In this document: positions 23,908-56,575 of the stretch, piece after piece | How the letters are laid out: each line of letters starts with the position of its first letter | How positions within the stretch are numbered: the stretch's first letter is position 1 | The notes under the pieces: generated by a model | Databases searched by the model: none | Told to the model about the DNA's origin: nothing | What the model saw: the letters and a program-made list of their open reading frames with translations, nothing else | Translations under genes and position numbers: made by a program | Origin: a virus | DNA: 56,575 nucleotides | Virus record (IMG/VR): IMGVR_UViG_3300050821_005734 | Span: 1 to 56,575 of that record | Strand: one strand, 5' to 3'

Positions 23908-24356
23908 CCGAGCCTCATCGCCTTGCGCCAGGCGTCGCTGTAGGCGCGGGCCAGACGGCCGTCAGCGACCAGTGCCTTCAGCGCGGGAGCCACGTACGGA
24001 CGCGGCGGAAGCCGGGACGCGCGGCCGCGCCCGGCCATCCCGCCGAGCTCCTGGACCCGGCTGTAGGCGGCGGTCGGCCCGATCCTGGCCTGATACATCC
24101 CGGGCCCGAGCTTGCGCGGGCCCTCGACCCTGATCGAGCGGCGCAGCTGCCCGGACACCAGCGACGGCGGCTCACCCGGCATCGACGGCGTCGGCGTTCC
24201 CTTCGGGTGCGAGGACGTCGTCAGCCGCTTCTTGATCTCGGCTTCGATCAGGTGCGCGCCCGTCGCCGTCGCGGTGCGCGTGGCGGCGTCGACGGCTTCG
24301 GCCATCGCCTTCATCCCGGCGCGCTGAGCGGCCCCGCCCGTGACGATGAACCCCAC
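23904..24356 (-). CDS. HK97 gp10-like tail component, 150 aa
   Basis: GTG start at 24354-24356. Residues resemble HK97-gp10 proteins: an N-terminal helix, LVSGQLRRSIRVEGP and the closing LPPRPYVAPALKAL. In most siphoviruses this gene lies before the tail tube. Here it follows the chaperones and precedes the tape measure, an order met in some actinophages. Confidence 0.72.
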   Translation of the reverse strand: MGFIVTGGAAQRAGMKAMAEAVDAATRTATATGAHLIEAEIKKRLTTSSHPKGTPTPSMPGEPPSLVSGQLRRSIRVEGPRKLGPGMYQARIGPTAAYSRVQELGGMAGRGRASRLPPRPYVAPALKALVADGRLARAYSDAWRKAMRLG

Positions 24357-24359
24357 GAC

Positions 24360-24626
24360 TCACCCCCGGTTCTGTGCCGCAGCCCTGACCTCGTCGAATA
24401 CGTTCGCCACCACCGGCATGCGGAAGAACAGCTCGATCGGGAGCTCATCTACTTGCTGAGGGGTCCAGCCGTACCTCTCGGCCCACCAGACGTAGCCCTG
24501 CGCTTCGTCCCAGCCGGTGCGGCGGTCTTTTTCCGGGGGGATGGTGCCGCCCTCAAGGCGAGCCCGGATTCGACTGAGGGCGCGGAAGGGGAGTCCGGGT
24601 CGGCGTGGTCGTCGGGCGTGACGCGC
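24360..24626 (-). CDS. Frameshift extension of the tail assembly chaperone (gpT-like)
   Basis: The -1 frame relative to the gene at 24449-24952 is open from a stop at 24627-24629 down to TGA at 24360-24362 and has no start codon. It encodes natural-looking protein (RTGWDEAQGYVWWAERYGW, ELPIELFFRMPVV), unlike the low-complexity tail of the zero frame. Candidate slip points are the CCCCCCGGAAAAAG run at 24527-24540, which includes AAAAAG, or a site just after 24626. A -1 programmed shift making a gpG-gpT fusion is standard at this position. The exact site is not fixed by sequence alone. Confidence 0.65.
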   Translation of the reverse strand, partial: ARHARRPRRPGLPFRALSRIRARLEGGTIPPEKDRRTGWDEAQGYVWWAERYGWTPQQVDELPIELFFRMPVVANVFDEVRAAAQNRG

Positions 24627-24952
24627 TCACCCATCAACGTGAAGATCTTCTGTTGGACCACGCCGATCCACTCGTGGTTGATCAGGATGAGGTAGTCGTC
24701 CGGGTCCATGTCGTCCAGGGATTCCAGGTCTTCGGACGGGATCGGCAGCACCTCGCCGTCGCTGCCGGTGCAGTTCCAGTCCTGGACGAGGATCGCCGCG
24801 ACGCCGTCGTTGAGGTCGACGATGTTCGCGCCGACGCGCCGTCCGTCGCCGAGGTCGGAGACGGACTTGGTCATCTGCCGGATGTGTTTGGAGCGCATCG
24901 TGTCGGGGCGTAGCAGGTCCATCCACGCCCCGGACGGGAGATCGATCTTCAT
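24449..24952 (-). CDS. Tail assembly chaperone, gpG-like, 167 aa
   Basis: ATG at 24950-24952, between tail tube and tape measure. The first 110 residues are acidic and folded-looking (MTKSVSDLGDGRRVGANIVD, DDYLILINHEWIGVVQQKI). The last 45 are Ala/Pro/Lys-rich and overlap the -1 frame extension. It keeps the tape measure soluble and recruits tail tube subunits. Confidence 0.75.
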   Translation of the reverse strand: MKIDLPSGAWMDLLRPDTMRSKHIRQMTKSVSDLGDGRRVGANIVDLNDGVAAILVQDWNCTGSDGEVLPIPSEDLESLDDMDPDDYLILINHEWIGVVQQKIFTLMGERVTPDDHADPDSPSAPSVESGLALRAAPSPRKKTAAPAGTKRRATSGGPRGTAGPLSK

Positions 24953-24974
24953 GGGTGTGGGGTTCCTTGCCTGG

Positions 24975-25988
24975 TCAGATGAACGTGCCGCTTGCTATGG
25001 CGTTCTGGAGGGTGACGGTCATCGGCCCGTAGCCGCCCGAGGCGCCGATGTTCGTGGTGTTGAGGACGCCCTTGCCGGTGATGTCGAACATGATCGCCTC
25101 GGAGCCGAAGTTCGGCGGGGCCGCGGTGAACGCGGCCTGCTGCATGTCGACCTGGAGCGACAGCAGGTTCGCCCCGGACAGGCCGTTGCTGATGAGCAGC
25201 TGCACCTGCGGCTGGGTGTTGTTCAGCATGTACGTCAGCGGCGTCTCGTCCGCCGCGACGAACGACAGCTTGAAGTCGGCGGTGAGGCCGCCGCGCTGCA
25301 TGATGTACGGGTCGCGCAGGTTCTGCGCCGTGTAGTAGGGCTTGACCGCGCGCTTGATGTTGAACTCGCCGGAGGCCACCGTGAGCACCGGGGCCCCGCC
25401 GACCGTGCCGCCCAGACCCAGCTGCACCGCCCACGACGGCTGCGGCTTGGCCGCGGTGAAGCTGGACGTGGGCTTCGACCCGGCCGTCTGCGACGCCCAC
25501 GACATGCCCTTGGCCGTGTACTTGAACAGCTCCGACTCGGCGTTGAACTGGAACCCGAGCTCCGACAGGGCCGTGCCGGAGAACTGCCGGGTCCCCGACG
25601 TCGGGGTGGGCCCGTAGAACTGGGAGAACGTGTGCGTGGTGCCCTGGCCGCCCGCACTGTTCAGCAGGCTGAACTTGTGGCTGAAAGGGGCGGCGGTGCC
25701 GGTGACGTCGTCCGCGCCGAAGATGTTGCCCAGCAGGTAGCCGAGCTCGTCGAAAAAGCCGGGACCCTCAAAGGTCAACTCGCCGAGGCGGACGCCGCCG
25801 ATGACGTTGAAGGCGTCGTCCGCCATCACCCCGCGGACGGCCTTGTCGTCCAAGAAGGTGATCTTGTCGTTCCAGTCGAATTTCGTGAACGGCAGGTACG
25901 CGACCGGGGCGACCGGGGTGCCGGGGGTGACGTCCTTGGCGACGCCGAGGAACCGTTCGAGGGACGGGTATGTGGTGGGTGCGGCCAT
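24975..25988 (-). CDS. Major tail (tube) protein, 337 aa
   Basis: Starts at ATG 25986-25988. N-terminus ERFLGVAKDVTPGTPVAPV is typical of siphovirus tail tube proteins. The rest is beta-rich with VIGGVRLGELTFEGPGFFDE and ELGFQFNAESELFKYTAKG. Position between head-tail joining genes and the chaperones agrees. Confidence 0.85.
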   Translation of the reverse strand: MAAPTTYPSLERFLGVAKDVTPGTPVAPVAYLPFTKFDWNDKITFLDDKAVRGVMADDAFNVIGGVRLGELTFEGPGFFDELGYLLGNIFGADDVTGTAAPFSHKFSLLNSAGGQGTTHTFSQFYGPTPTSGTRQFSGTALSELGFQFNAESELFKYTAKGMSWASQTAGSKPTSSFTAAKPQPSWAVQLGLGGTVGGAPVLTVASGEFNIKRAVKPYYTAQNLRDPYIMQRGGLTADFKLSFVAADETPLTYMLNNTQPQVQLLISNGLSGANLLSLQVDMQQAAFTAAPPNFGSEAIMFDITGKGVLNTTNIGASGGYGPMTVTLQNAIASGTFI

Positions 25989-25994
25989 GGCGTG

Positions 25995-26348
25995 TTACTC
26001 CTGGCTCTGTGCGGGCTCGGGCATGGCCTCGGGTGCCGGGATCGGCGCGGGCTCGGCCTGCGGCGCGTTCGCGGCGGCTTCTGCTGCGGCGTCGGCCCTG
26101 GTCTGCGCGTCGAACTCCGCGCGCGTCGCCGGGGCCAGGTCGCGGTGCGTCGGCACCCACGGCAGGGGCGCGATACGGCCCGGCGCCAGCGTCAGGCCGA
26201 CGCCTTCGCCGACCACGTCCAGCGGCGTCTCGCCGACGTTCCGCCACCAGCCCGGATCCGGCGGCACCACCGCATGCGGCGGCGGAACCTCCTCCGGCAC
26301 GGCCTCGACGGCCTCCGGGACAGTCGCAGCACTCTTCTTCACGGCCAC
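25995..26348 (-). CDS. Hypothetical virion-region protein, 117 aa
   Basis: The GTG at 26346-26348 is chosen because AGGAG lies seven bases upstream. Other in-frame GTGs at 26369 and 26363 have none. Pro/Ala/Glu-rich ends flank a short ordered part (GWWRNVGETPLDVVGEGVG). It lies between the basic repeat protein and the tail tube gene. No family recognised. Confidence 0.65.
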   Translation of the reverse strand: MAVKKSAATVPEAVEAVPEEVPPPHAVVPPDPGWWRNVGETPLDVVGEGVGLTLAPGRIAPLPWVPTHRDLAPATRAEFDAQTRADAAAEAAANAPQAEPAPIPAPEAMPEPAQSQE

Positions 26349-26359
26349 GCGCGTACTCC

Positions 26360-26983
26360 TCACTTCCACTTGCGCAGGTGCCTGCGACCGGCGCGGAACG
26401 ACTGGTGGCGGCGCTTCACGCCGTGACGGAACCTCGAAGGCAGCCGGGAGCGGCCGTGCTTGAAATGCGACGGCCGGATGCGTTCGCGAGGGGCCTTGGC
26501 GACGCGGTGCAGCCCGCGCGGCAGGTGGTGGACGGCCACCGTGCGGCGGGCGACAGCGGCCCGGCGGCGGGCGACGGTGGTGCGGTGCGCGCGCGAACCG
26601 CGGCGCCCCGGATGCCCCTTGTGGTGCCGGCCCTTGAGCCGGGCCGAGAGCTTCGCCCTGGAGGCGGCGGACATCTTGTGGCCGCGCGGATGCTTCCCGG
26701 CGCGGGCCTTCTGCATCTTCGCCTTGGTGGCGGCCGACAGCTTGTGGCCCTTGTGGTGCCGGCCCTTCTGCCGGGCGGCCTGGGCCTTCTTCTGCGCCGC
26801 GGTGCGGTGCTTGCCCCGCAGCTTCGCCGACAGCTTCGCCCGGGTCGCCTTCGACGGGTGACGGCCCTTGCCGGCCTTCGACAACTTGGCGCGGGTGGCC
26901 TTCGACGCCTTACGCCCCTTGGCGGCCTTAGACAGCTTCGCCCGGGTCGCGCTCGACACCGGACGGCGAGCGCGCTTGGCCAT
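26360..26983 (-). CDS. Highly basic NUMOD3-like repeat protein, 207 aa
   Basis: Starts at ATG 26981-26983. At least five repeats of the form (S/K)ATRAKLSKA.KGR.. fill residues 8-110. They match the NUMOD3 DNA-binding motif normally fused to homing nucleases. No GIY-YIG or HNH core is present. The C-terminal half is Arg/His-rich. Almost no acidic residues, so it should bind nucleic acid strongly, like histone H1. It stands among head-tail joining genes and may travel in the virion. Confidence 0.7.
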   Translation of the reverse strand: MAKRARRPVSSATRAKLSKAAKGRKASKATRAKLSKAGKGRHPSKATRAKLSAKLRGKHRTAAQKKAQAARQKGRHHKGHKLSAATKAKMQKARAGKHPRGHKMSAASRAKLSARLKGRHHKGHPGRRGSRAHRTTVARRRAAVARRTVAVHHLPRGLHRVAKAPRERIRPSHFKHGRSRLPSRFRHGVKRRHQSFRAGRRHLRKWK

Positions 26984-26989
26984 CTCGGC

Positions 26990-27535
26990 TCAGGCCTGGA
27001 CGACTTCGGTGACGCGGAACCCGATCTCGTGCCAGGAGATGACCTTCCCGTCCTCCAGCACCGGCTCGTCCGGGGAGATCGTCAGGCCGTTCGGGTTCTG
27101 CCCCGCCGACCAGATCACCCCGGAGCCGCCGGGGCCCGACGTGCCGCACGTCGCATCCGACTGGAGCCGGGACTTGATCCCCTGGAGGATCGCGTCCTCG
27201 GAGTCCACCCAGTCGTCCGGCATGACCGTCGGATCGGTCGACGCCGACGGCAGCAGGTACTGGTAGGCCACCATGACGGTCACGTCGTAGTGCACGCCCT
27301 TGGTGCCCGACATCCCGATCGCCGGGGTCGGTCCCGGCGTCGTCCACCGTGTCTCGTCGCTGATGGCCAGGTGCAGCCACGCGACCGCGCCCGATCCGCC
27401 GTCGGCGATCAGGTTGAACAGGGCGCCGTCGATGAGCGTCGGCATCGCCTTGAACACCTGCTGCAACCCCGGGATCGCCGGCACGCCCGCCGCCAGGAAG
27501 TCCGCGATCGCGTGCCGTACCGTGCTGCGGCTCAC
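26990..27535 (-). CDS. Tail terminator-like protein, 181 aa
   Basis: GTG at 27533-27535 overlaps the upstream adaptor stop. N-terminal helix (RHAIADFLAAGVPAIPG), then beta strands with HYDVTVMVAYQYLLPSA and a helix DSEDAILQGIKSRLQSD, a layout seen in minor tail/terminator proteins of actinophages. Located between the head-tail adaptor and the tail tube genes. Confidence 0.65.
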   Translation of the reverse strand: MSRSTVRHAIADFLAAGVPAIPGLQQVFKAMPTLIDGALFNLIADGGSGAVAWLHLAISDETRWTTPGPTPAIGMSGTKGVHYDVTVMVAYQYLLPSASTDPTVMPDDWVDSEDAILQGIKSRLQSDATCGTSGPGGSGVIWSAGQNPNGLTISPDEPVLEDGKVISWHEIGFRVTEVVQA

Positions 27536-28434
27536 CAGGTCCGCCCCAGCGGCTCCAGCAGCTCGAACGCGATGTCGATGTCCTCGCCGGCGCCCGGCAT
27601 CATCTCGGCCAGCTTCGTCTGGCGCCCGGGTCCCGGCGGCATCACGTAGGCGTCGGAGCCGCGGGTTTTGACCAGCGCCGAGGTCAGGGAGATCACGGCC
27701 TCGCGGACGAACGGCGGCATCGCGGAGACCGACACCCCGGCCGTGTGCGCGTTCGCCAGCGGCGCCGCCAGCGGGATGACGTTCCCTGAGACGTAGGTCG
27801 GGGCGACGGTGTTCTGCTCGGTGAGCAGGCCGCCCGACGCCCCGTCGTAGATCGTGACCGGCAGGCCGGGGAAGATGCCCAGCGGGTTCAGCACCGTCAC
27901 CGACGACGCGCCCGCCGCTGCGGCGAGGGTCGTCACGGTGTGCGCGTAGCCGTTGACGTAGGTGACGTCCGCGAACAGCCAGCCGCGGCGGGCGGACGAC
28001 GCGGTCACCGGAATCATCATCGACGGGGCGTTGAAGACCGGGATCCGCACGACCTTCTTGCCCAGGCGGCACCCCGACAGGTCGGTCAGCGCGGCCAGGG
28101 TTCCGGCGAACTGGCCGACGTTGACGTTCGTCACCTGGATCAGCGGCGTGTTCTCCACCGGAACCCGGATCGTGCCGTCCGTCCAGACCCGGTACTCCCC
28201 GGACTGCACGTCCGAGGTCGCGGCCAGCACCTGGTGGCAGATCCGGTCGGCCCACGACGACGCCCGCCCGATGACCCGGGTCAGCGCAGCGGTCTGCGTC
28301 GCGGGCGAGGAGTTCTTCGGTACGAGCTGGGAGACGTCGACGCCGGTCGGCTCGGCCAGGTATTCGGCCGGGGTGATGTAGTTCGTGTAGACGGCGTAGG
28401 ACGGGGCGTACGGCGCGCTGACCGGGGCAGCCAC
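27532..28434 (-). CDS. Head-tail adaptor/connector protein, 300 aa
   Basis: The GTG at 28432-28434 has AGGAGG eight bases upstream. The GTG at 28443 abuts it and is less likely. An N-terminal helical part (TPAEYLAEPTGVDVSQLVP, then ALTRVIGRASSWADRICHQV) resembles gp6-like connectors. An insertion of beta strands (DGTIRVPVENTPLIQV) follows, then a C-terminal helix. It forms the ring joining capsid to tail by position. Confidence 0.7.
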   Translation of the reverse strand: MAAPVSAPYAPSYAVYTNYITPAEYLAEPTGVDVSQLVPKNSSPATQTAALTRVIGRASSWADRICHQVLAATSDVQSGEYRVWTDGTIRVPVENTPLIQVTNVNVGQFAGTLAALTDLSGCRLGKKVVRIPVFNAPSMMIPVTASSARRGWLFADVTYVNGYAHTVTTLAAAAGASSVTVLNPLGIFPGLPVTIYDGASGGLLTEQNTVAPTYVSGNVIPLAAPLANAHTAGVSVSAMPPFVREAVISLTSALVKTRGSDAYVMPPGPGRQTKLAEMMPGAGEDIDIAFELLEPLGRTW

Positions 28435-28446
28435 GACAGGCACCTC

Positions 28447-28926
28447 CTACGTCGGGTAGCGGTGCATGTGATCTACGGGCGGGGAGTGCACGTGCCTGCG
28501 GTGCCCGAGCGCTTCCAGGCGTCCGGCGATGCGGACGTCCATGCGGCGCCAGTCGCCGGCCTTCACGCCGGAGTCGTCGATCGACGCGGCCGTGGACATC
28601 AGCCCTGGCAGGGAGGTCTTCAGGTGCGAGGTGAAGCGGGTGCAGCCGAGGCACACCAGCAGCTGGGTGCCGATCGCGTACTCGAACCCGCACCACGGCT
28701 GGCCGCAGGCGAGCAGCTCGTCGATGACGCCGGCGCGGATCCCGACGTCGTGCTCGACGATCACCAGGTCGCCCGGTTCGGCCCAGGCGTCGACGAGGAT
28801 CCGGGAGTAGGCGGTGTCATCCGCCGGGTCGATCTCCCGCCAGGTGATCTCGTCCGGGGCGTGCTCGATGAGCAGGTCTCGGGCGACAGGGTTCTGCTTG
28901 GCGACGGTGTAGGGGGCGAGGATCAC
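28447..28926 (-). CDS. GT-A-like protein, paralogue 2, 159 aa
   Basis: GTG at 28924-28926 overlaps the previous stop by four bases. The core is shared with the 161-residue protein at 39694-40179: a start near the first strand, (L/F)VIVEHD as an acidic metal-site candidate, CGQPWCGFEYA, CLGCTRF and the C-terminal HVHSPPVDH. The EHD and overall size suggest a minimal GT-A fold, but catalysis is unproved. It stands among virion genes, between the capsid-linked gene and the connector. Confidence 0.68.
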   Translation of the reverse strand: MILAPYTVAKQNPVARDLLIEHAPDEITWREIDPADDTAYSRILVDAWAEPGDLVIVEHDVGIRAGVIDELLACGQPWCGFEYAIGTQLLVCLGCTRFTSHLKTSLPGLMSTAASIDDSGVKAGDWRRMDVRIAGRLEALGHRRHVHSPPVDHMHRYPT

Positions 28927-29354
28927 GCCGGGCGGCTGGCCGGGGGCTTGTCTGCGGTCTTCCTGGCGGCGGCGGTCTTCTTCGCGGGCTTGTCGTCGGC
29001 CGCGGGTGTCTCCGTGACGGCCTCGGGAACCGGGGCCGGGACGATGACAGCCGGTGCCGGTGCGGGCGCGGGGTTGCCGCCCAAGGCGGTGACCTGCGCC
29101 TCCAGCGAGGCCACACGCTCCCGCAGCTCCGACAGCACCCTCAGGGCCACGGCCGGGTCGCGCAGCTCGTCCAGGGACTCGCGGGCCAGCTGCGCAATGT
29201 GCGCGGCCTCGGTGCGCCACGTCCCGGCGGCGGTGGTCAGAAGGTGCTCGGCGAACGGCTGCGGCAGGTCGAATATGCCGTCCGGTCCGGCGGTCGCCGT
29301 GCCGTGGACCGGGTCGCTGACGCTGGACGCGCCAGGCAGGTGGATCATGCGCAT
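28923..29354 (-). CDS. Conserved virion-region protein, 143 aa
   Basis: Starts at 29354. The opening (MIHLPGASSVSDPVHG, then AGPDGIFDLP) recurs in actinophages just after the capsid gene. A coiled-coil segment (ELRERVASLEAQVTAL) and an Ala/Pro/Lys-rich tail follow. Unknown role, probably structural. Confidence 0.7.
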   Translation of the reverse strand: MRMIHLPGASSVSDPVHGTATAGPDGIFDLPQPFAEHLLTTAAGTWRTEAAHIAQLARESLDELRDPAVALRVLSELRERVASLEAQVTALGGNPAPAPAPAVIVPAPVPEAVTETPAADDKPAKKTAAARKTADKPPASRPA

Positions 29355-29369
29355 GGGTGCTCCTTCGGG

Positions 29370-29405
29370 CCGGGGCGCCCGGAGCCGAAGCCGCAGGCGC
29401 CCCGG
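29370..29405. terminator. Hairpin after the capsid gene
   Basis: 10-bp stem CCGGGGCGCC (29370-29379)/29396-29405 with a 16-nt loop, in the 57-bp gap after the capsid stop. It may be a partial terminator or mRNA 3-prime stabiliser that raises capsid yield over downstream genes. Confidence 0.6.
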
Positions 29406-29411
29406 GGTCGG

Positions 29412-30905
29412 TTACGGGGTTGCGGCGATGCTCTGAAGAACCGCCTGGGCCACGGGCGCTTTGTTGATGAACGTCGAGACCGAGCGGGCCTCGCCGTCCT
29501 CACGCGGGCCGCCGGACGTGCGGTCCGACCCGTACACGTAGTCGTACAGGTCGTCCAGGCACCGCATCTCGAAGACGTTGCCGACGTCGGAGTTCGGGAA
29601 CGGCACCGTGTCCCGGCGGGCGACCAGCGTCCCGGGCGGGATGTTCGGGTACATCTTGATCGGCACCTGCTCGCCGGTGAGGCGGTTCACGTACGAGCCG
29701 ATCCGGCCGCCTGCGACGATCTCGCCGCGTCCCGCGGCGTCGTTCATCGTCAGGTAGGTGACCGCACCCGGCGTGTTCATGATCAGCTTGCCGAGGCTGT
29801 TCGACTCCTGCGCGGAGACCATGTAGCACGACGGGCCGAGCTGGATCGAGTTGTACAGCGCCACGTTGATCGCGTCGAGCTGCGAGATGCCGCCGCCGGA
29901 CACGGTGAACTGCGAGCCCGCCGCGTCCTGGATGATCGAGCCGGACGAGGTGCCCGCGCCGTGCTGGACGATCGGGCCGCCGGCGGTGGTGTAGTCGCCG
30001 GTGTTGGTCGCGAGCATGCCGTTGAACTCGGTGGTGCCCGCGGAGCCGTTGTCGGCGGCGGCGTTGAACGTCGGGACGGTCGTGGACAGCCCCGGCAGCG
30101 TCGCCGCCGGCGGCACCTGCGCGGCGGTGATCGTCGAGGTGATGGTCACAGACGGCACCGTCGTGGTCGTGTAGTAGAACCACGTCGCGCCGTTGGCGGA
30201 GTAGAACCAGTCGTAGGCGACGGCGCCGACGACCGAGGCGATCGACGCGGTGATCGAGTGCGTCGAGGTGGTGGTGCCGGTGGTGAGGTTGGCGCTGTTG
30301 CCCTGGCTGTTGCCGTGGCCCAGGCCGAGGTTGTCGCCGTTGCAGTAGTAGTAGCCGGATCCGGTGCGGGCGGCGACGCCGACGTACACGGTGGCGGAGG
30401 CGGCGATCGTGCCGCCGGTGGTGACGTCCGCCAGTGTGGGGGCCGCGGGGCGCTGGAGCGCGAAGGACTGCGCGCCGAACGCCAGCTTGTCCTGGCCGAT
30501 CTTCCACTGGGCGATCGCCGAGTAGATCGCGCGGGCCTTGGCGTCGGCGTAGCCCTTCGCGCGGGCGATCGAGTCGCGGGTGACGGTGTAGCCCATCGCC
30601 AGCGGCCAGTACGGGGCCGTGACCTTCATCAGCGAGTTCTTCGCCAGCGGCCCGGCGGCGTCGAACGCGACCGACGGCTTCGGCTGCTGGTTGTTGACGT
30701 TCAGCAGCGCTTCCCACTGCGCGACGTCCGAGCCCATGTTCGGGCCGGTGCGGGCGAGTTCGTCGCCCAGCGGCGTGACGACCGGGACCAGGGAGATCAG
30801 GTCCATCAGGTCGACGCCGAGGATGTTCGTGGCGCTGGTGATACCGCTGGTCACTGCCTTGAAGATCTCGAGCGTCTCCGCCGAGATGTCGTCCTGTGTA
30901 GGCAT
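29412..30905 (-). CDS. Major capsid protein with inserted Ig/Fn3-like domain, 497 aa
   Basis: ATG at 30903-30905 behind AAAGGCGGA. The first 150 residues carry the HK97-type N-arm and helix (GITSATNILGVDLMDLISLV, DSIARAKGYADAKARAIYSA). A beta-rich insert at about 150-260 (APTLADVTTGGTIAASATVY to SITASIASVVGAVAYDWF) looks like an Ig/fibronectin domain exposed on the shell. The C-terminal part returns to capsid fold (EIVAGGRIGSYVNRLTG). Position after the scaffold and the strong ribosome site agree. Confidence 0.85.
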   Translation of the reverse strand: MPTQDDISAETLEIFKAVTSGITSATNILGVDLMDLISLVPVVTPLGDELARTGPNMGSDVAQWEALLNVNNQQPKPSVAFDAAGPLAKNSLMKVTAPYWPLAMGYTVTRDSIARAKGYADAKARAIYSAIAQWKIGQDKLAFGAQSFALQRPAAPTLADVTTGGTIAASATVYVGVAARTGSGYYYCNGDNLGLGHGNSQGNSANLTTGTTTSTHSITASIASVVGAVAYDWFYSANGATWFYYTTTTVPSVTITSTITAAQVPPAATLPGLSTTVPTFNAAADNGSAGTTEFNGMLATNTGDYTTAGGPIVQHGAGTSSGSIIQDAAGSQFTVSGGGISQLDAINVALYNSIQLGPSCYMVSAQESNSLGKLIMNTPGAVTYLTMNDAAGRGEIVAGGRIGSYVNRLTGEQVPIKMYPNIPPGTLVARRDTVPFPNSDVGNVFEMRCLDDLYDYVYGSDRTSGGPREDGEARSVSTFINKAPVAQAVLQSIAATP

Positions 30906-30992
30906 TGTTCCGCCTTTCTGAAGGCATGCGGGACGGACCCGGCGGCGTGTTGCGAGGGCCGCGGGCGCCCGGGAAAGTCTTGGAAGGTGCTG

Positions 30993-32720
30993 CTAGCTGA
31001 ACCGGGCCCTGATCTTCGCCAGGGCCAGTTCCGTGCTGGCGGCGTCGCGCGCCGGCCCCTCAGGGGCGTCGGCGACGGCCTTGGCCAGCTCGGCCAGCGG
31101 GTCCGGCCCGGCGCCGTCATGCAGGGCGAGCCCCGCGCCGGCTCCGGTGGCGCCGTTCATCACTGGGGACCTGCGGTCGTCCGGGCTCCTGCCCCACTTG
31201 TCGACGCGCCCCTGTAGGCCCTTCACCACGTCCGCCAGCTGCGCGTACTGCGCGAGCCCTTCGGCGAGCGGGCTGATGGCCTCTTTGAGCGCGGCGGCGA
31301 GGTGGGCCTGCGGGTCCGTCGACTTCGCCACGTCCTCTTCGTCGCCGTCCGCGGCCGGGGCCGGTGCGGCGATCGTCTGTGTGCCCGGGATGACGGCGCC
31401 GTCGGCGGCGTCCCCGGTGTCGGCCGCGGATTCCGGGGCCGAAGTCTCGCCGGTGCCGCCCATGTCGGCGATCGGCATGATGTCGTCGGGGTCGCACACG
31501 CCGACCGGCTTGCCGGTGGCATCGCAGACCACGTACATCGGCTTCTTGTCGGCCTTGAGCAGCACTGCCGGGATGTTCGCGACCTTCGCGACCTCCGGGG
31601 CGGCCAGTACGGTCTCGCCGGCGGCCAGCGGGGCCTGAACAGTTGCGGTTGCGGACACGGCGGTCTCCTTCGTCTGCTTGGCGACCGGCTGGCCGTCATC
31701 CGTCGTCGGTGCGGGCAGGGACGCCAGCACCTTCTGAAGCGCGTCGACGGCACCGCGGATCGCGGATTCGTTGCCGGCGCTGAGCACACGGCCCGCCTTG
31801 CGGACCGGCGCGAACGCCTCGAGGACCTCCAGCGGCGCGACGTCGAATCCGGACATCGCCTTGCCGACCGCCTCGAGGGCCTCGCCGCCGAGCTCGGCCT
31901 CGGCCTGCTCGCCGACCGCGAACCCGGCCAGGGTGTCGATGACGTAGTCCAGGGCGCACTCGGCGTCCTGAAGACTCCAGGCCTCGCCGGCGTCGTCGCA
32001 GTCGCCGGTGGCGGCCTCGAGCATCTCCCGGTCGGCCATCACCGACAGGGCGTTCTTCAGGCGCACCGCGATGCCGGTCCACTTGCGGGCGGTCGCGGCG
32101 TCGATCGCCTCCCACGCCGGGGATCCGGGGGCGTTCTCGTCGCCCGGGGCGTCGCCGTCGGGCTCGGCCAGCACGGTCGTCGGGTCGAGGTCGTCTGCCA
32201 TGCCGTCCGCCTTCTTGAGGGAGCCGTCGGAGCCCCAGTTGTCGGGGATCTCGCTGGATGCGCCGAGGGCGCGGGCCCGCGACTCGATGTGGCGGCGGAT
32301 CGCGTCGTGCGAGGAGCCGCCTCGGCCGACCGCGCGGATGGCCCGGTCGAGGTCTTCGTGGTCCTCGATCGGGTAGGACTCGTCGGGCATAGCGGCGCCG
32401 GAGGAGGCCATGCGTTTCAGGTCGTCGGCGTTGTACTTGGCCTTGCGGATCGCCGCCTGGTGGATCAGAGCGGCCATGGCCGCGGGACTTCCGGTCATCG
32501 TCACCGTCTCCTGCGGCTCCGTGGCGGGTTCGGACTTGGCGATCAGGTCACGGACGAAGTCGGCGCCGAACAGGCCCGCCGAAGCGTCTGGTGCCGCCTG
32601 CTTGGCGAACAGGATCCGCGTTCCGTTCGCCGCGGCCTTGACCGCATGGACACTCTTGATGTCCGCGTCCCGGAGCTCGCCCCACTCCTCGCCGTCTTCG
32701 AGTTCGACTTCGGCGTCCAT
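30993..32720 (-). CDS. Capsid scaffold-type protein, 575 aa
   Basis: Starts at ATG 32718-32720, sharing a base with the previous stop. Residues of about 105-170 match a DUF6582-like domain (AMPDESYPIEDHEDLDRAIRA-type, then RRHIESRARALGASSEIPDN). The rest is acidic, Ala-rich, with helices and a C-terminal coiled region (LALAKIRARFS end). Low complexity and placement between protease candidate and capsid suit a scaffold. Confidence 0.7.
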   Translation of the reverse strand: MDAEVELEDGEEWGELRDADIKSVHAVKAAANGTRILFAKQAAPDASAGLFGADFVRDLIAKSEPATEPQETVTMTGSPAAMAALIHQAAIRKAKYNADDLKRMASSGAAMPDESYPIEDHEDLDRAIRAVGRGGSSHDAIRRHIESRARALGASSEIPDNWGSDGSLKKADGMADDLDPTTVLAEPDGDAPGDENAPGSPAWEAIDAATARKWTGIAVRLKNALSVMADREMLEAATGDCDDAGEAWSLQDAECALDYVIDTLAGFAVGEQAEAELGGEALEAVGKAMSGFDVAPLEVLEAFAPVRKAGRVLSAGNESAIRGAVDALQKVLASLPAPTTDDGQPVAKQTKETAVSATATVQAPLAAGETVLAAPEVAKVANIPAVLLKADKKPMYVVCDATGKPVGVCDPDDIMPIADMGGTGETSAPESAADTGDAADGAVIPGTQTIAAPAPAADGDEEDVAKSTDPQAHLAAALKEAISPLAEGLAQYAQLADVVKGLQGRVDKWGRSPDDRRSPVMNGATGAGAGLALHDGAGPDPLAELAKAVADAPEGPARDAASTELALAKIRARFS

Positions 32721-33106
32721 CAGGTCCTCCCGGCCGGGATGCGGCGGGCGTTACCCTGCGGCGACAGCCCTGTGATGAGTCCGCGCTTGTAGAGGGACCA
32801 GGCATGCGGGCTGAGATAGCCCCCGACGAGCCAATCGCCGGCCTTCACCACCGTCACCGAGCCGTCGGGGCCGGTGACGGTCCAGTCCGGTCCGAGGTGG
32901 ATCCATGAGCGGGTCGGTTCGAATTCGCCGTCGGTGCCGTCGATGTGGAACGCGCCGCCGCCCATGCCGTTGCGGGCGAAGGAGTCGGCGGCCTTCTCCA
33001 ACTGCTCTGCGGTGAAGAAGTCGCGGTGGTCGTCCAGGCCCTTCTGGATGAGGGGGTCGCGTCCGACTTGGTAGGCCAGGGCGACGATGAACCGCTGTTC
33101 GGGCAT
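32720..33106 (-). CDS. XkdF-like head maturation protease candidate, 128 aa
   Basis: ATG at 33104-33106 with GGGGAG six bases upstream and two bases after the portal-fusion stop. The end, AGDWLVGGYLSPHAWSLYKRG then GLSPQG, resembles the XkdF family of putative phage serine proteases. The middle has GGGAFHIDGTDGEF. Catalytic residues cannot be fixed here. Gene order portal-MuF, protease, scaffold, capsid supports the call. Confidence 0.6.
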   Translation of the reverse strand: MPEQRFIVALAYQVGRDPLIQKGLDDHRDFFTAEQLEKAADSFARNGMGGGAFHIDGTDGEFEPTRSWIHLGPDWTVTGPDGSVTVVKAGDWLVGGYLSPHAWSLYKRGLITGLSPQGNARRIPAGRT

Positions 33107-33108
33107 GG

Positions 33109-36100
33109 TCACTCCCCTTCGCCAGGATTCGGGGCGAACTCGGGCATAATGGCGCACCGACACCGCGGGTGCCCTGGCGGTTCCGTCTCGCCGCTGGGGA
33201 AGGCGTTGCCGAACGGGATCGCCCCGACGTCCTCGTTCTCGGAGCAGTAGGAACAGACCCGGCCGTCGTCTGCACTGGCCCAGCTGACCCACTCGATGCC
33301 GTTCGCCGCGTAGGTGTTCATCGACGCGGCCGAGACGGCGCGGGCGATCTCTGTGGTCGCGGTCAGCTCGGCCCAGTTGGCGTTGTCGAGGATGTCCGCC
33401 AGGTCGCGGGCCAGGGTGTCGGAGGAGTCGCCGCGTTCGAGGGACAGCGCGATGGCCTGGGCGAGCTCGTCGAACCGGCCCTGTCCGAGGCTGCTGATGG
33501 TGATCTGCGCGTCGGCAAGCTGCTGCGCGAGGCCTGCGCCGAGTCCGTCGTGTCCGAGGACCAGGTTCGCGGCGTCGACGTCGCCCGGTGTCCAGCCGCC
33601 CCAGATGGCCGCTCCGCCGAGGACGGACGCGATCGCCGCACGGGAGCCGAGGACGAAGCCCTCGGTGATCATGTCCTCGATGACGGGCGCCAGCGTGCCG
33701 TGGATCATCGCGAGGATGCCGTGGTCTGCCAGCCGCTGGTTCGCGGTGGTGAGGAGGTCCGGATCGGCGGCGGACGCCTTCGCGACGCTGCCGACGCCCC
33801 GGGCGATCGCCGCGGTGTCGACGGCCCCGGTCAGCGCCCGGCGGATCCGGTCGGCGTAGAGCGCGGCCAGTTCACGGTCGCGCTCCCAGCCGGCCCACTG
33901 CTTGGCCGAGCCCGGCGCTTTTGGGCTGCCGCCGTCACCCGCCTTGGCGACCGGCTCGTCCAGCTCGTCGCCCCGCGGAAGCAGCGACGCCATCACCGAG
34001 TCAAGCGAGTCGGCCAGCTCCTGACGCAGCGCCGGGTTACCCGCCCACTGCGCGGGATCCCACCAGGCGACCGCCTCCACTGCGTCCCCGTCCGGATCGT
34101 CCGGGTTGCGGACCTGGCCGCGTTCGCCCAGACAGATCAGGTCCTCGGACGGCACGTCCAGGACGAACCCCTGGTAGATGCCGTCGCCTGCGAGCCAGGA
34201 CGGCGCGCCACCAAGGTGTGCGCCGAGGAGGTCGGCCGGGAGCAGGCAGCCGGTCTCCTCCTGCCATTCCCGTGCCGCAGCCGTCGAGGGCATCTCGCCG
34301 TCCTCGACGTGACCGCCCGGGAACTCCCACGTGCCGGATGCCGGATCCTCATCGTCCAGGCCCCGCTGGAGCATCAGGACCCTGCCGGTGTCCCCGGCGC
34401 GGACCGCGAGCCCTGCGACGGCGACCTCGCCCGCAGCCTTGCGGACCGCGGCGCGTCCGCCGTCGTTGAGACGGTGCGCGGTGACCGGGTCGGTCAGGTG
34501 CGTGAACTGGAAGTCCCGCCACCGGCCCCGCGCGCGGCGGTTGTCGGCGTACTTGCGGAACCGTGCCAGCTCCGCGTCGGCCGCCTTCGTCACCGTCGCG
34601 GTCGGCAGCTGCGCGGCCGCGTCCGCCGGCACGCCCTGCTCGGTGAGCATCTGCTGACGCGCCTGCACCTGGTAGGCGTCGGTCGCGGCCAGGTCCTGCG
34701 CGGCGTCGGTGGTGCCGGCCTGCGGGATGATGCCGACCGGCCCGACGTACGGCATGTCCAGCGGCGGCTGGTCGGCCGCCGGCCCGTGGGTCTCCGGATC
34801 GGTCTTGCCGGACACGCCCTCGATCGACAGCAGCGGGATCGGGCCCAGGCGGGCGTTGTTGAAGAACCGCGGCGTCGGACGCTCGTTGTCCACCGGCAGG
34901 CCGAGGAGCTCGGAGCGCATCTCGTCCGGGGAGGCGGCGCCCGACTCGACGTAGATCTTCCAGGCTTCGGCGTCGGCCTTGCGGTCCTCCTTGTCGCGGC
35001 CCGTGTTCAGCTTGGCCTTGACCGGCAGCCCGATGTCGCGGCGCAGGTACCGGGTGAGGATGCCCTCGATCCAGTACACCCACGGCAGGGTGTTGACCCG
35101 GAACTGGATGTCGGTCTGCACTTCGCCGCTGGACCGGTTGACATCCTTGACCAGGCCAGCGTCCTGCGGGACGACGCCGAACTTCGCGCAGGTCCGGGAC
35201 ATCAGGTATTCGGGGAACGCCGAGTCGAACGACTCGGGCCGGGTGTTGGTGACCTTCGTGCCGGACGGCACCGCCAGCAGCTGGTGCAGCTTCGCCTGGT
35301 CGCCGAGGACCATGGCGTCCCAGTAGTCCTGCCACTCGGCGACCTGGTTCGGCGACGACACGTCCGGCGGCACCTCGATGAACCCCGCCGGGACGGAGCC
35401 CTCGGTGAACATCTGGAGGAAGTGCCACTGGAACCGGATGTCGGTGTTGGCCGTCAGCAGCAGGGCCTCCATCGGCGCGGTGCCGAACGGGGCGTCCTCC
35501 TGCGGCCGGAACATCTCGTAGGTGATGTCCTCGTGGGTGTACCAGTCCCAGATCTGGCCGTGGATCACCTGGTAGTACGCGGGTGCCGGGGCTTTGGGGC
35601 GGCGCCCGTGCTCGTCGATGTACGGGAGGACGGTATTGCCGCACCATGCCGGCTGGCCGTTGCGGCGCACGTACAGCGTCTCATTCGGGACGGTGACGCA
35701 GTAGACGGCGCCGTCGTACGGCACGCGCTCGACTCGGGCGACCTTCTGTGCCGCCGTGGTCCGCAGCCGGATGCAGTAGGAGGCTTGCTGGGACTCCAGT
35801 CGGATGACGCGGCCGTCGGCGAAGGTCGCCTCGCGGAGCTTGCGCTTGCGTACGGAAGCCGAGTAGCCCAGCTTCTGGGCGATCTCCTGGAGGTGGTCCG
35901 CCATCTGTCGCGACGACGTCACGATGGTTTCACGGCCGTCGGCATAGCAGCCGTCGCCGAGCATGTAGAAACGCCAGAAGATGCCGAGCTGGCGGCGGCT
36001 AGCGTCGCGGATCTCCGGCGGCACGAACTTGTCCGCCGCGTGCCCGAACTGGCGGAGGTAGTTCGCGAGGGCCTGCGACCGGAACCGCCACTTGGTGCCG

Positions 36101-37287
36101 TCATATCTGGGCTCACGGCCCAGCACGCGGCCCAGTAGGGCGCGGAACTCCTCGTAGCCCTTTGAGGATTCGCGCTGCGAGACGGCGATGGTGCCGCGCT
36201 GTCCGAGCGATCCCTCGGACAGCCACATGCCCATGAATGCCGCGAAGTCGTCCCCGTCGAGTTCGAGGAGCCGGGCGCGGACATCTGTGTCGGGAATCCG
36301 GAACGTCTGGAAATCGTCCGCTTCCCAGTCCGAGGTCGCCGGAATCTTCACCTTCTCGGAGAGGGCGCCCGCGAGCTCTTCAGCTGGAACGAACGCCTCG
36401 CCGCTGCGGTGGCGGCTGCCTCCGAGCGGTCGCGGCAGCGCGGTCACGAGCATGCGGTGGTTGCCCGTGACGAGCAGGTCAAGCGTTCGCGATGTGAAGT
36501 GGTACAGCGGCTCGCGGCCAGCCCAGTCCTGCCGGGTGAATGCGGTGGCTTGCTGCCACTCAAAGGCCTTGGTCTTCTGGTTGCGCGTCGCGAATTCGTC
36601 AGTGGCGATGTCGACGTCGGTGAACCGCTTCCAGCCCTTGCGGGTCAGAACCTCGGTGTCCTCCGAGTAGCACGTGCCGTCGAGGACCTCGAGCCCGATG
36701 ACGTCGCCGTCCAGGTTGCGACGCCGGTACAGGGCGGTGGCGTCGAACTTTAGGGCGTTCTCCATGAGCTTGGACAGCCAGCCCACGTACGGCAGTTCGC
36801 GGTCCGGGAACTCCAGGACGGCGCGGGCGACGTCGATGGCGTCGTCGACGTCTCCCCGGATCCCGTCGGCGGGCAGCAGCATCAGGTCCATCGACCGCAA
36901 CTCGTCGATCTTGTGGTCGATGCAGATGCGGGCCACGTCGTAGTTGCGGATGATCGCCCGCAGCGTCTCGTAGGACGCCAGGCCCCACGACGCCCGGGTC
37001 CGGATGGCGATGTTGACGCCGACCGGGTAGTCCATCGCCCGCGGCGGCTGGGAGTAGCCCTGGTACGGGCTGATCGGCCGACCGGGGCCCATCCCCGACG
37101 AGGAGTCCATGCCCGCCCGGTGCAGCGCTGCGTCGACGGCGGCGGGGGTGCGGGACGCGGTCGTCCAGCTCGCGGCTTTGCCGACCCGGGCTGACGGCAG
37201 GGGCGGGGGTGCGGTGTAGCTGGGGCGTTCGGCCTGGGCGCGCGGGCCGCGGCCCTTGTTGCGGTTGCGGCCGGAACGCTTCGACAT
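33109..37287 (-). CDS. Portal-Nudix-MuF fusion protein with intein, 1392 aa
   Basis: ATG at 37285-37287 shares a base with the terL stop. Residues 1-205 and 552-850 are the portal (VARICIDHKIDELRSMDL, YEMFRPQEDAPFGTAPMEA, NRSSGEVQTDIQFRVN). Residues 206-551 are an intein. About 955-1085 is a Nudix domain with the full box GGHVEDGEMPSTAAAREWQE then ETG near 989-1011. About 1140-1392 is a MuF-type minor head domain ending in DDGRVCSYC and HPRCRCAI. The spliced product would be 1046 residues. Portal-MuF fusions occur in actinophages. A Nudix hydrolase between them is unusual. No stop or start separates the parts. Confidence 0.9.
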   Translation of the reverse strand: MSKRSGRNRNKGRGPRAQAERPSYTAPPPLPSARVGKAASWTTASRTPAAVDAALHRAGMDSSSGMGPGRPISPYQGYSQPPRAMDYPVGVNIAIRTRASWGLASYETLRAIIRNYDVARICIDHKIDELRSMDLMLLPADGIRGDVDDAIDVARAVLEFPDRELPYVGWLSKLMENALKFDATALYRRRNLDGDVIGLEVLDGTCYSEDTEVLTRKGWKRFTDVDIATDEFATRNQKTKAFEWQQATAFTRQDWAGREPLYHFTSRTLDLLVTGNHRMLVTALPRPLGGSRHRSGEAFVPAEELAGALSEKVKIPATSDWEADDFQTFRIPDTDVRARLLELDGDDFAAFMGMWLSEGSLGQRGTIAVSQRESSKGYEEFRALLGRVLGREPRYDGTKWRFRSQALANYLRQFGHAADKFVPPEIRDASRRQLGIFWRFYMLGDGCYADGRETIVTSSRQMADHLQEIAQKLGYSASVRKRKLREATFADGRVIRLESQQASYCIRLRTTAAQKVARVERVPYDGAVYCVTVPNETLYVRRNGQPAWCGNTVLPYIDEHGRRPKAPAPAYYQVIHGQIWDWYTHEDITYEMFRPQEDAPFGTAPMEALLLTANTDIRFQWHFLQMFTEGSVPAGFIEVPPDVSSPNQVAEWQDYWDAMVLGDQAKLHQLLAVPSGTKVTNTRPESFDSAFPEYLMSRTCAKFGVVPQDAGLVKDVNRSSGEVQTDIQFRVNTLPWVYWIEGILTRYLRRDIGLPVKAKLNTGRDKEDRKADAEAWKIYVESGAASPDEMRSELLGLPVDNERPTPRFFNNARLGPIPLLSIEGVSGKTDPETHGPAADQPPLDMPYVGPVGIIPQAGTTDAAQDLAATDAYQVQARQQMLTEQGVPADAAAQLPTATVTKAADAELARFRKYADNRRARGRWRDFQFTHLTDPVTAHRLNDGGRAAVRKAAGEVAVAGLAVRAGDTGRVLMLQRGLDDEDPASGTWEFPGGHVEDGEMPSTAAAREWQEETGCLLPADLLGAHLGGAPSWLAGDGIYQGFVLDVPSEDLICLGERGQVRNPDDPDGDAVEAVAWWDPAQWAGNPALRQELADSLDSVMASLLPRGDELDEPVAKAGDGGSPKAPGSAKQWAGWERDRELAALYADRIRRALTGAVDTAAIARGVGSVAKASAADPDLLTTANQRLADHGILAMIHGTLAPVIEDMITEGFVLGSRAAIASVLGGAAIWGGWTPGDVDAANLVLGHDGLGAGLAQQLADAQITISSLGQGRFDELAQAIALSLERGDSSDTLARDLADILDNANWAELTATTEIARAVSAASMNTYAANGIEWVSWASADDGRVCSYCSENEDVGAIPFGNAFPSGETEPPGHPRCRCAIMPEFAPNPGEGE
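35635..36672 (-). mobile_element. Intein with LAGLIDADG homing endonuclease in the portal gene
   Basis: 346 codons. Block A starts at Cys206 (CYSEDTEVLTRKGW). Block B has LLVTGNHRML. Two LAGLIDADG-type motifs follow, FMGMWLSEGSLG and FYMLGDGCYADG. Block F (YDGAVYCVTVP) leads to the terminal WCGN before Thr. The penultimate residue is Gly instead of the usual His, and the +1 extein residue is Thr. Exteins rejoin as LDGT-TVLPYIDE, the normal portal sequence. The element is richer in A+T than the flanking portal. Confidence 0.93.
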
Positions 37288-53111: not shown

Positions 53112-53549
53112 TCAGGCTCCGATCATTGCGGCGTGGTTGGTGACGAGGTTGGCGTGGTGCTGGTCGCAGGCTTGGCACGGGTCCGGTCGCGGGTCGCCGG
53201 GTTGCGCGACGGCCCGGTAGTGGCCGGCCACGTCCCTGACGACGTTGCGTGCGGCTGTGGCGCGTCGTCCTCCGCAGGCGCCGCAGTGGTCGGGCAGCCG
53301 CTTCGCGGCTTCCAGCGCTTTGGCTTTGCTCTCCTTCGCGGCGGTCGTGGCCCAGAGCCGCAGATATTCCTTGACGCGGGCGAGGCGGGTTGTGCCTATG
53401 CCGGGGATGGCCGCGAGCTGCTTGGGTGTCATCGCCGCGGCGACGGACGGGGTCACGTTGGCGCTAGCCAGTGCCTTGCGGGCCTTGGCGGCGATCGAAT
53501 CGTCGCCGAGGTGCCACTCGGCGTTGAGTTCGGCAAAGGTGAGGGTCAT
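53112..53549 (-). CDS. Helix-hairpin-helix and zinc protein, 145 aa
   Basis: ATG at 53547-53549 overlaps the previous stop. An HhH motif (PKQLAAIPGIGTTRLARVKE) as in non-sequence-specific DNA-binding proteins is followed by CGACGG and CQACDQHH as a zinc ribbon. DNA repair or recombination accessory by fold. Substrate unknown. Confidence 0.72.
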   Translation of the reverse strand: MTLTFAELNAEWHLGDDSIAAKARKALASANVTPSVAAAMTPKQLAAIPGIGTTRLARVKEYLRLWATTAAKESKAKALEAAKRLPDHCGACGGRRATAARNVVRDVAGHYRAVAQPGDPRPDPCQACDQHHANLVTNHAAMIGA

Positions 53550-54055
53550 GGTCGGTCCGTTTCGGGTCGGTCGGCGGGCTCGCGGTAGGGCTTGTCGGGT
53601 GCGGGCTGTCCGGTCGCCTGGGCCCACCAGCCGGCGCAGAGCATCGCGCCGAGCGGGAGTTCGCCGATGGTGGCGGTCGGGACGTAGGTGCCGCGGATGA
53701 GCGGCATGGCGTGGTGGCAGTAGAACGGCTCGTCGGTGGGGAGCTTGACCGAGCCGGATTCCTGCTCTGGCGAGCCGGGCCGGTAGGCGCAGTCGGCGCA
53801 GGGCCGGGTCATGAGCGCGGGTGGCCGCGGTGCGGGCTTGAGTTCGGACTCGTCCCAGCCGGCGACGTCGTTGGTGAGGCCGTTGCCTGCGCAGTGCATG
53901 CATCGGCCGTCGGACCAGGTGCCGTCGCCGTCGCAGACGGGGCAGATCCATCGCAGGATGGTGACGGTCGGGAACTTCTTGGCGGACTGGACGCCGAGCT
54001 TGTAGGCGTCGACGATGCCAGTCTCGAGGATTCCGCGTATCAGGTCGTCAGTCAT
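53546..54055 (-). CDS. Multi-zinc-finger protein, 169 aa
   Basis: ATG at 54053-54055. CPVCDGDG and CMHCAGNG are DnaJ-type CxxCxGxG pairs. CADCAYRPGSPE and YCHHAMP form a second Cys/His cluster typical of an actinobacterial family. No J domain. Role unknown. Confidence 0.74.
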   Translation of the reverse strand: MTDDLIRGILETGIVDAYKLGVQSAKKFPTVTILRWICPVCDGDGTWSDGRCMHCAGNGLTNDVAGWDESELKPAPRPPALMTRPCADCAYRPGSPEQESGSVKLPTDEPFYCHHAMPLIRGTYVPTATIGELPLGAMLCAGWWAQATGQPAPDKPYREPADRPETDRP

Positions 54056-55928: not shown

Positions 55929-56575
55929 CTAGGGCTGGGCGTCCGTGGCGACGGCGGCGGGTGTCTCGGGTTCGGCGCCCGCGCAGATTTCCTCCACCAG
56001 CTCACGTAGCTGGTCGATGCTGTTGCTGCCGTTGAACAGCCGGTCGGCGGTCGACTCGTCCAGGCCGAGTACTGCGCGGGCACCGGCCGCGATGGCGACG
56101 TGCTCGCGGATGAACCGGGAACGCAGCCGCTCGGGCAGCGACGCCACCTCGACCGTGGACGCTTCGATGTTCATGCGGGCGTCGACGGTGAGGAGCGCGT
56201 GACCGGCGGCGCAGTATTTGGTGCCGCATGCGGTCTCAACGGCCCAGGTGCTCTGGTCCCACTCCTCGGGGTGGGTCTCGATGCGTGTGAGCATGTTGCG
56301 GACGGCTGCGGGCTCGGTTGTGAGCGGCACACGTTGCGTCAGGGCGCCGCCGTTGACGACGGGCTGCGCGCCGAGTGCGCGGATGGTGACGTTTGGGCCG
56401 GCGTTGATGGTCATGGGGCCGGTGGCCAGGACGTTGACGTAGTCGTGGGCTGTGACGACGATGTCCGACTCGCCCCTGGTCACGATGCGCGGCGTCGAGG
56501 AGTCCCTGGTCTCGATGCGCGGCGTCGAGGAGTCCCTGGTCTCGATGCGCGGCGTCGAGGAGTCCCTGGTCTCGA
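55929..56575 (-). CDS. SSTPRI-repeat protein, C-terminal part
   Basis: The frame enters from the right edge through three exact ETRDSSTPRI repeats and continues without a stop. Residues after the repeats are beta-type (ESDIVVTAHDYVNVLATG, INAGPNVTIRALG). A helical module follows with WAVETACGTKYCAAGHALL, a pattern found in many actinobacterial plasmid and phage proteins, then a helical end (ADRLFNGSNSIDQLRELVEE). A start codon inside the window (GTG near 56483) gives 184 residues, but the true start is at 249 across the junction. Confidence 0.8.
   Translation of the reverse strand, partial: ETRDSSTPRIETRDSSTPRIETRDSSTPRIVTRGESDIVVTAHDYVNVLATGPMTINAGPNVTIRALGAQPVVNGGALTQRVPLTTEPAAVRNMLTRIETHPEEWDQSTWAVETACGTKYCAAGHALLTVDARMNIEASTVEVASLPERLRSRFIREHVAIAAGARAVLGLDESTADRLFNGSNSIDQLRELVEEICAGAEPETPAAVATDAQP
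56484..56575. repeat. 30-bp direct repeats, right end of window
   Basis: Three identical 30-bp units plus GA. The final GA matches the first two bases of the window, so joining the ends with this 2-bp overlap restores an exact unit and keeps the frame. The true copy number may be larger than the 6-7 seen. Confidence 0.95.

Follow-up and report, generated by a model that had tools for sequence, protein, structure and literature searches.

The window analysed here, an IMG/VR virus record (IMGVR_UViG_3300050821_005734) of 56,575 bp that is classed linear and has 69.9% G+C, is well supported by sequence comparison as the genome of a tailed phage with a circular map, opened inside a repeat array by short-read assembly. 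The two ends of the linear map carry the two parts of a single minus-strand gene, the N-part at 249..1 and the C-part at 56575..55929 (Table 1). Comparison of its domains and units shows this gene to represent the decapeptide branch of a large phage family, in which an N-cap is followed by tandem 8- or 10-residue units and a C-terminal domain. We are highly confident of this anatomy and of the assembly account. The account as a whole, in which the split gene and its family are joined with a solenoid fold and a role as a remodelled intracellular binding scaffold, is in our judgement rather probable.

Table 1. Features of the window around the split array gene and in the structural gene block.
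Feature	Position	Strand	Details
N-cap domain	112..249	(-)	46 aa, MYDYVDVTTQAELNAAIAAG..., start codon at 249
N-side arm of the 30-bp/decapeptide array	1..111	(-)	3.7 units
C-side arm of the 30-bp/decapeptide array	56475..56575	(-)	3.3 units, 101 bp
C-terminal part to stop	55929..56474	(-)	181 aa, stop at 55929
phrog_889 match in C-terminal part	about 56309-55971	(-)	residues 89-201 of P0002
Replication-initiation-like gene, upstream of array gene	284..1198	(-)	phrog_270, E 4.7e-9
Gene on other side of array gene	53546..54055	(-)	conserved in relative near its array gene
Head and tail gene block	22765..37140	(-)	same order as Arthrobacter phage Mufasa8

Tandem Repeats Finder reported a period of 30 and a score of 197 for each arm, at 1-109 and 56474-56575, and translation placed both arms in one minus-strand frame. 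The initial annotation had proposed that the ends consist of the same in-frame 30-bp unit and that any linear map splits the gene between them; both proposals are borne out (arms at 1-111 and 56475-56575), and the gene of a relative is split likewise. The interval 56484-56575 that it gave for the junction lies within the array and covers only most of the right arm. At the left end, 83 aa can be read on the minus strand, namely the 46-aa N-cap and 3.7 units, before the frame runs off the end. The unit is [DG]SSTPRI[EV]T[RW], with six complete copies and three variable sites in the window. Since the 30-bp unit is stop-free and both strands are open through the repeats at both ends, the shared frame is in itself weak proof of a gene. 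That the minus-strand frame is real is indicated by three other lines of evidence. Compared with the relative, the N-cap has 81% nucleotide identity (13 synonymous and 8 nonsynonymous differences in 46 codons, locus L005) and the C-domain 76% amino acid identity (46 synonymous and 42 nonsynonymous differences in 181 codons, locus L004). A profile built on 40 distinct N-caps, none of them from the window or the relative, hit the N-part of the window at E 5.2e-12 and that of the relative at E 5.7e-9 in an hmmsearch of 1,043 ORFs. Finally, the C-part matches phrog_889 with an E-value of 3.6e-18.

The relative, IMGVR_UViG_3300021411_000014 (a viral contig of 41,882 bp), is the only close one found. 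It carries both gene halves, begins and ends inside the array, and has 30 complete units in its two arms. Genes related to the window neighbours flank its array on both sides: the product of its ORF 3311-4471 resembles the replication-initiation-like protein on the same side (34% over 102 aa), and an ORF near its array gene at the other end resembles the window gene 53546..54055 (50% over 175 aa). A neighbour of its array gene reads as a putative RusA-like gene. The two viruses share the array region and not clearly the whole genome, as the tape-measure protein of the window was not found in the relative. Scans of genome contigs with the N-part and with the C-domain gave no further relative, and a tblastn search of phages with the N-part of the window gave nothing at E<=1. 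A decapeptide array fused to phrog_889 was found only in the window and this relative.

Breakage at the array was also seen in the wider family. A C-domain profile of this family was searched against viral contigs, and the best 80 of 123 confirmed matches correspond to 79 loci. In 25 of these 79 loci, a contig end lies within 500 bp upstream of the C-domain match with the frame open up to it, where 1.4 would be expected from random placement over the 79 contigs. There were 26 such loci by coordinate, of which L105 was removed, as the start of its locus does not coincide with a contig end; the 25 include L087, whose contig begins in the N-cap and not in the array, and L046, which has almost no repeat before the end. 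The other half of the gene was found at the opposite end of 10 of the 25 contigs, with shared exact 15-mers and an N-cap in all ten. These ten are all at least 38 kb (10 of 14 long contigs and none of 11 shorter ones). It was not seen at the opposite end of the other 15, four of which are at least 38 kb. Like the window, the long contigs with two halves are classed linear in the database.

Both ends of the relative lying in the array, together with the complementary halves at the ends of ten other contigs, lead us to a circular map and to a copy number that is a floor. The initial annotation had anticipated a circular genome, an assembler break at the array and an underestimated copy number, and these points agree with what was found: the relative and family contigs also stop within arrays, and about 7 units are seen in the window for at least 30 in the relative. 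The true array of the window is probably longer than 7 units. A short-read assembler would fail to cross such an array, and the circular assembly graph would be cut open there; judging from the family contigs, the window is one instance of this general effect. Circular refers here to the map, and the virion DNA may be circularly permuted or terminally redundant. One earlier claim is not retained, namely that a 2-bp overlap reconnects the ends exactly. The longest exact overlap of the window ends is indeed 2 bp (GA) and preserves the 30-bp register and the frame. It is no evidence of adjacency, since the overlap in comparable contigs ranges from 0 to 154 bp (0-7 bp in seven of the ten contigs with two halves and 107-154 bp in three), and units are likely missing between the two ends. 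The overlap of 127 bp in L087 would be the expected product of a k=127 assembler closing the circle.

That the window ends are the true physical termini, or terminal repeats, of a linear virion DNA is very improbable. Both ends do bear the same repeat in the same orientation, but they hold two different halves of one gene, and the same split is found in the relative and in ten other contigs. Synteny with Mufasa8 also points to an end elsewhere. Eight of the 30 Mufasa8 genes given have matches in the window, in the same order (gp3, protease, capsid, adaptor, gp9, major tail, gp15 and tape measure), the series running from 37.1 kb (gp3) to 22.8 kb (tape measure). The Mufasa8 map is suggestive of a conventional left end near 39-40 kb of the window, with the contig running through it, though the large terminase subunit of Mufasa8 has no match in the window. 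Close to this predicted left end are an HNH endonuclease gene (40176-40778) and a glycosyltransferase-like gene (40789-41703).

The assignment of the array gene to the family rests on the N-cap, with a [TN]QAEL-like motif before the array that the hmmsearch profile found in the window, and on the units. Octapeptide proteins with a phrog_15773/DUF7666 C-domain include those of Mycobacterium phages (Che8 gp59, Squirty gp51, ThetaBob gp59 and Redi gp44), Spooky gp76 and the protein of ctHz2215; Mycobacterium phages, Gordonia phage Spooky and Dulem virus 38 are among the members of the family. DUF7666 scored over the cut-off in ThetaBob, Squirty, Spooky, Dulem virus 38 and bbp36 of BPP-1. These proteins have in common with the window gene the N-cap (TQAEL...), short tandem units, homologous variable positions with the alternatives G/D/E, R/H/S, E/V and W/R/Y, and few silent differences. 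They differ in having 8-residue units; the window has 10-residue units, in which TP is inserted relative to the octapeptide, and phrog_889. No Pfam match to P0001 or P0002 was obtained at E<=1, DUF7666 included. Domain comparison shows that phrog_889 stands where most relatives have DUF7666/phrog_15773, and the window gene is therefore a family variant rather than a DUF7666 protein. The N-part and repeats of the close relative matched ctHz2215 over 98% of the query (tblastn, E 1e-5). The ctHz2215 protein has 21 octapeptides [GE]SS[RS]V[EV]A[RWC] and a phrog_15773 C-domain (E 2.1e-71), with DUF7666 below the cut-off.

Octapeptide and decapeptide forms both occur in viral contigs. Window units vary at positions 1, 8 and 10 and those of the relative at 1, 6, 8 and 10. 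Other decapeptide members in viral contigs (e.g. L062, L064 and L085; units such as SSQPHVEAW and SSAPSIETW) share the 10-residue unit, with variation at 1, 6, 8 and 10 over 10 arrays, but their C-domain was picked up by a phrog_15773-type profile and the background codons of L062 differ. The L042 octapeptide array holds the stretch PSSVQHRTPSSVQHRT, which resembles a local shift of frame inside the array. The bbp36 protein of Bordetella phage BPP-1, in which the BPP-1 record annotates variable region 2 (VR2), resembles the family in its DUF7666 match (E 1.7e-10) and its 24-bp, 8-residue repeats GTATAGYR; unlike the window, it has a reversed domain order, another repeat sequence and variation at unit positions 7 and 8 in the register used. 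The C-terminal domain of the window corresponds to the phrog_889 proteins, e.g. Gordonia phage Morgana gp63. In all 10 other loci looked at, phrog_889 stands alone as a small protein, whereas it is fused in the window. One of these loci, L028, has an octapeptide array gene roughly 0.3 kb downstream of phrog_889, cut off by the contig end; the two genes span 2354-3416. This neighbourhood suggests that phrog_889 and the array protein were functionally linked and were later fused.

Several other matches were set aside as repeat look-alikes. The tblastn search with the N-part and repeats of the close relative hit repeat proteins of the tail fibre of the haloarchaeal phage PhiCh1 at E 8e-8, better than ctHz2215, and the repeat-containing tail fibre protein of phiH, also haloarchaeal, at E 8. 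These two and a Croceibacter phage match were so taken, as were Spt5 CTD in P0003 (E 1.8e-8, over the cut-off), DUF4774 in bbp36 and ALTTAQ in Squirty (both over the cut-off), the Cake designed proteins matched by P0004, and three plasmid records. A search of viral contigs with an octapeptide DNA pattern gave no match. RIIB lysis inhibitor PHROGs weakly match DUF7666-type C-domains (group A6, with L011, L012 and others): phrog_609 was found in four of the six A6 members, at best with 0.01, and phrog_3803 in one, with 0.0045. A link of DUF7666-type C-domains to exclusion genes is possible through these weak matches; the window itself has no DUF7666 domain. No papers were found on DUF7666.

The arrays vary in a very restricted manner. 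Among 36 units of the window and its relative, only four nucleotide positions vary, all nonsynonymously (D/G with one V, R/S, E/V and W/R); in the flanks, 47 of 112 fourfold sites differ between the two. The first unit of the relative, the V variant, is part of this set and was left out of a first set of 12 arrays, in all of which pN exceeded pS. Extension to the wider family gave pN>pS in 59 of 61 arrays (51 octapeptide and 10 decapeptide arrays, related phages being unthinned and so not all independent), the two others being L060 and L065. In 15 arrays pS was zero, and the median pN/pS was 3.4 where pS exceeded zero. The 61 arrays derive from the 79 loci, of which 73 remained after six without a clear array in the matched frame (L038, L045, L058, L059, L105 and L107) were put aside and 12 more had fewer than 5 units. 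Amino acid entropy is 0.92-1.18 bits at octapeptide positions 1, 6 and 8 and 0.29 at position 4. For decapeptides it is 0.48-1.04 at positions 1, 6, 8 and 10, and every other position of both forms is at or below 0.11. The four corresponding residue positions are also variable in ctHz2215, where the codons are independent and a few other changes occur, and L062 varies at three of them with still other codons.

Array length also changes within otherwise identical genes, in agreement with the variable length expected by the initial annotation. N-cap and C-domain DNA (108 and 420 nt compared) is identical in Redi, Rebel, Raymond7 and the viral contig L034, and these have about 4, 4, 3 and 7 units, respectively. 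SkinnyPete and Frankie show no difference in 573 flank nucleotides within the gene and have 12 and 14 units, with 5 unit DNAs in common of 10 and 11. Variable array length is thus directly visible in cultured relatives. Family arrays can change while their flanks remain identical, both in length and mostly at unit positions 1, 6, 8 and partly 4 (1, 6, 8 and 10 in the 10-residue form). As SkinnyPete and Frankie are unalike beyond the gene in a plain ungapped comparison, the array gene may have moved between them recently. In ctHz2215 one block of units is exactly duplicated, a sign of unequal recombination. Neighbouring units in octapeptide arrays are slightly more alike at lag 1 (z 1.1-1.6 at each of four positions), as expected from block duplication. 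Linkage between variable sites is weak, with a mean r2 of 0.124 versus 0.075 after permutation (228 site pairs) and p-values from 0.06 to 0.70 when site pairs were tested in the relative (six tests). We also rejected the idea that the units follow a positional code or alternate: in arrays of at least 8 units varying at the position (4 to 40 arrays per position), lags 1-5 at eight unit positions gave z from -1.7 to 2.1, with no alternation and an order close to random. Unequal and intra-unit recombination between near-identical units would reshuffle a small set of alleles.

Structure prediction gave a picture compatible with the proposed beta-solenoid. For the N-part of the relative, AF2 with a two-sequence alignment reached a mean pLDDT of 75, with 69-87 for the repeats by ten-residue block; four of the five models had means of 63-75 and one of 47. 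One strand per unit was predicted, at unit positions 6-9 in 17 of 17 units. The model of the C-half was poor (pLDDT 44.6), no solved homologue of P0002 was found, and a fold search with the AF2 model returned no PDB or viral match at E<=0.001. A tendency of AF2 to over-predict beta-solenoids when repeats are perfect has been reported (PMC11795689), and for this reason the pattern of variation is the better argument. Reasoning from the alternation of residues along the strand, we infer that positions 6, 8 and 10 would lie on one side of the strand, opposite the constant I and T, and the variable set would be the outward set plus one turn residue (position 1). Constant I/V and T/A would then point inward, with the variable residues outward or in the turn. 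The solenoid part of the initial annotation is thus plausible, with one strand per unit: the strand prediction and the variation pattern fit it, while the AF2 bias and the missing fold match weigh against it.

The array gene lies outside the structural block (22.7-37.1 kb) and beside the replication-initiation-like gene, whose product also matches phrog_26991 (function not assigned) at E 1.7e-18. Within 284-1198, seven copies (at most one mismatch) of GGTTCCGGTAA are found on one strand at 599-798, where 0.22 are expected in shuffles; these look like putative origin iterons inside the initiator-like gene. Elsewhere in the family, the ctHz2215 array gene is near RecT and exonuclease genes, bbp36 is near an exonuclease and an annealing-protein gene, and array genes of Mycobacterium phages are near repressor or WhiB genes; methylase genes also occur near the arrays of relatives. 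Other repeats in the window are TCGCGAT in 4.4 copies at 55199-55229, just upstream of ORF 54390-55199 (weak HTH matches) and possibly an operator; runs of 18-bp, 27-bp and 36-bp units at 13760-14000, which may encode collagen-like Gly-Pro repeats; and a perfect tandem duplication of 23 bp at 47252-47297, a frameshift if it lies inside a gene.

Which process generates the variation, and whether selection maintains it, can be weighed on the allele data. Targeted mutagenesis, for instance by a diversity-generating retroelement acting on adenines, could be invoked because 158 of the 230 variable nucleotide sites involve A on the coding strand and the window pair and ctHz2215 vary at homologous sites. 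Yet, counting alleles that occur at least twice, 210 of these sites have two and just 5 have three (64 arrays entered, of which those with at least 6 units were used), where adenine mutagenesis should give several, and no RVT_1 domain was found in the window by a search that was positive in 3 of 14 control genomes. The retroelement was accordingly rejected, and targeted mutagenesis has very little probability. A passive array deserves more attention. It would serve as a spacer or scaffold that is insensitive to length and kept homogeneous by recombination, with outward positions that tolerate almost anything and no selection for diversity. The absence of clear positional order along arrays, the range of about 3-7 units between the identical compared flanks of Redi, Rebel, Raymond7 and L034, and the two-allele sites all suit it. 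Relaxed constraint alone gives pN at or below pS, in conflict with the excess of pN in 59 of 61 arrays and with pS=0 in 15, although silent-site constraint, from codon use or from DNA homology kept for recombination, might depress pS. Given the near-random order and this possible constraint, the passive array is a serious rival, even if we hold it to be fairly unlikely.

The location of the gene bears on the other rival, a virion-exposed fibre or adhesin that varies to match receptors. Beta-helical repeats are common in phage fibres. Tail fibre repeats of PhiCh1 (E down to 8e-8) and phiH (E 8) matched by tblastn, and weak Gp5_trimer_C matches, below the cut-off, occur in two relatives. Against this, the window gene is separate from the head and tail block and adjoins the initiator-like gene, relatives lie near recombination, WhiB, repressor or methylase genes, and bbp36 of BMP-1, the counterpart of the BPP-1 family member, is remarked in PMC2884959 to be not essential and without apparent reflection of host tropism. 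We regard a virion-exposed protein as improbable. Variable-copy repeat proteins of phages are already known as a kind, VR2 and Tweety gp54 being examples. Repeat number in the BMP-1 gene is given as 9-20 by isolate (PMC2884959). In gp54 of mycobacteriophage Tweety, the best functional precedent, N and C domains likewise flank a repeat array of changing number; changes in its repeat number are described as tuning counter-defence against prophage defences (PMC9262239, PMC8549241), and it is thought non-essential. Its repeats are alanine-rich alanine-alanine-x-x tetrapeptides (PMC2884959), a pattern absent from the window unit [DG]SSTPRI[EV]T[RW], and the likeness is one of analogy. Because of the non-structural gene context and the precedents of Tweety gp54 and bbp36, we rank first, as a tentative proposal, a remodelled intracellular binding scaffold in phage conflict. 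The protein might act inside the cell as such a scaffold or as a decoy in phage-host or phage-phage conflict, which is the least certain step. It could serve in counter-defence or exclusion, its C-terminal domain being the effector and repeat number and surface tuning the target. The near-random order of units is as compatible with a mixed surface as with a specific code, and PADLOC gave no hit.

For viral genomics, the array family frequently breaks short-read assemblies, and the presence of two gene halves at the two ends of a contig is a simple mark of a near-complete genome that end-repeat tests may miss. COBRA and CheckV are presented as dealing with contig breaks and completeness in general. 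In the titles and abstract beginnings of a mostly open literature, we found no account of this array family or of its effect on assembly, the remarks on bbp36 in PMC2884959 apart. As for the biology of the phages, it is conceivable, and we would advance it only with reserve, that dozens of them, many distantly related, share a recombination-driven diversification of a protein surface without a dedicated mutator. A repeat scaffold with few outward residues per unit, shuffled almost freely, would provide a binding surface of tunable length against changing host or prophage defences, combined with interchangeable C-terminal domains. If this is true, near-fixed silent sites and inward residues together with mostly two-allele outward residues would yield a large combinatorial surface. 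With arrays that differ in length and residues inside identical flanks, and with pN above pS in 59 of 61 of them, this little-studied family is a good test bed for asking whether phages maintain fast, recombination-based change of a protein surface, and for finding what that surface binds.
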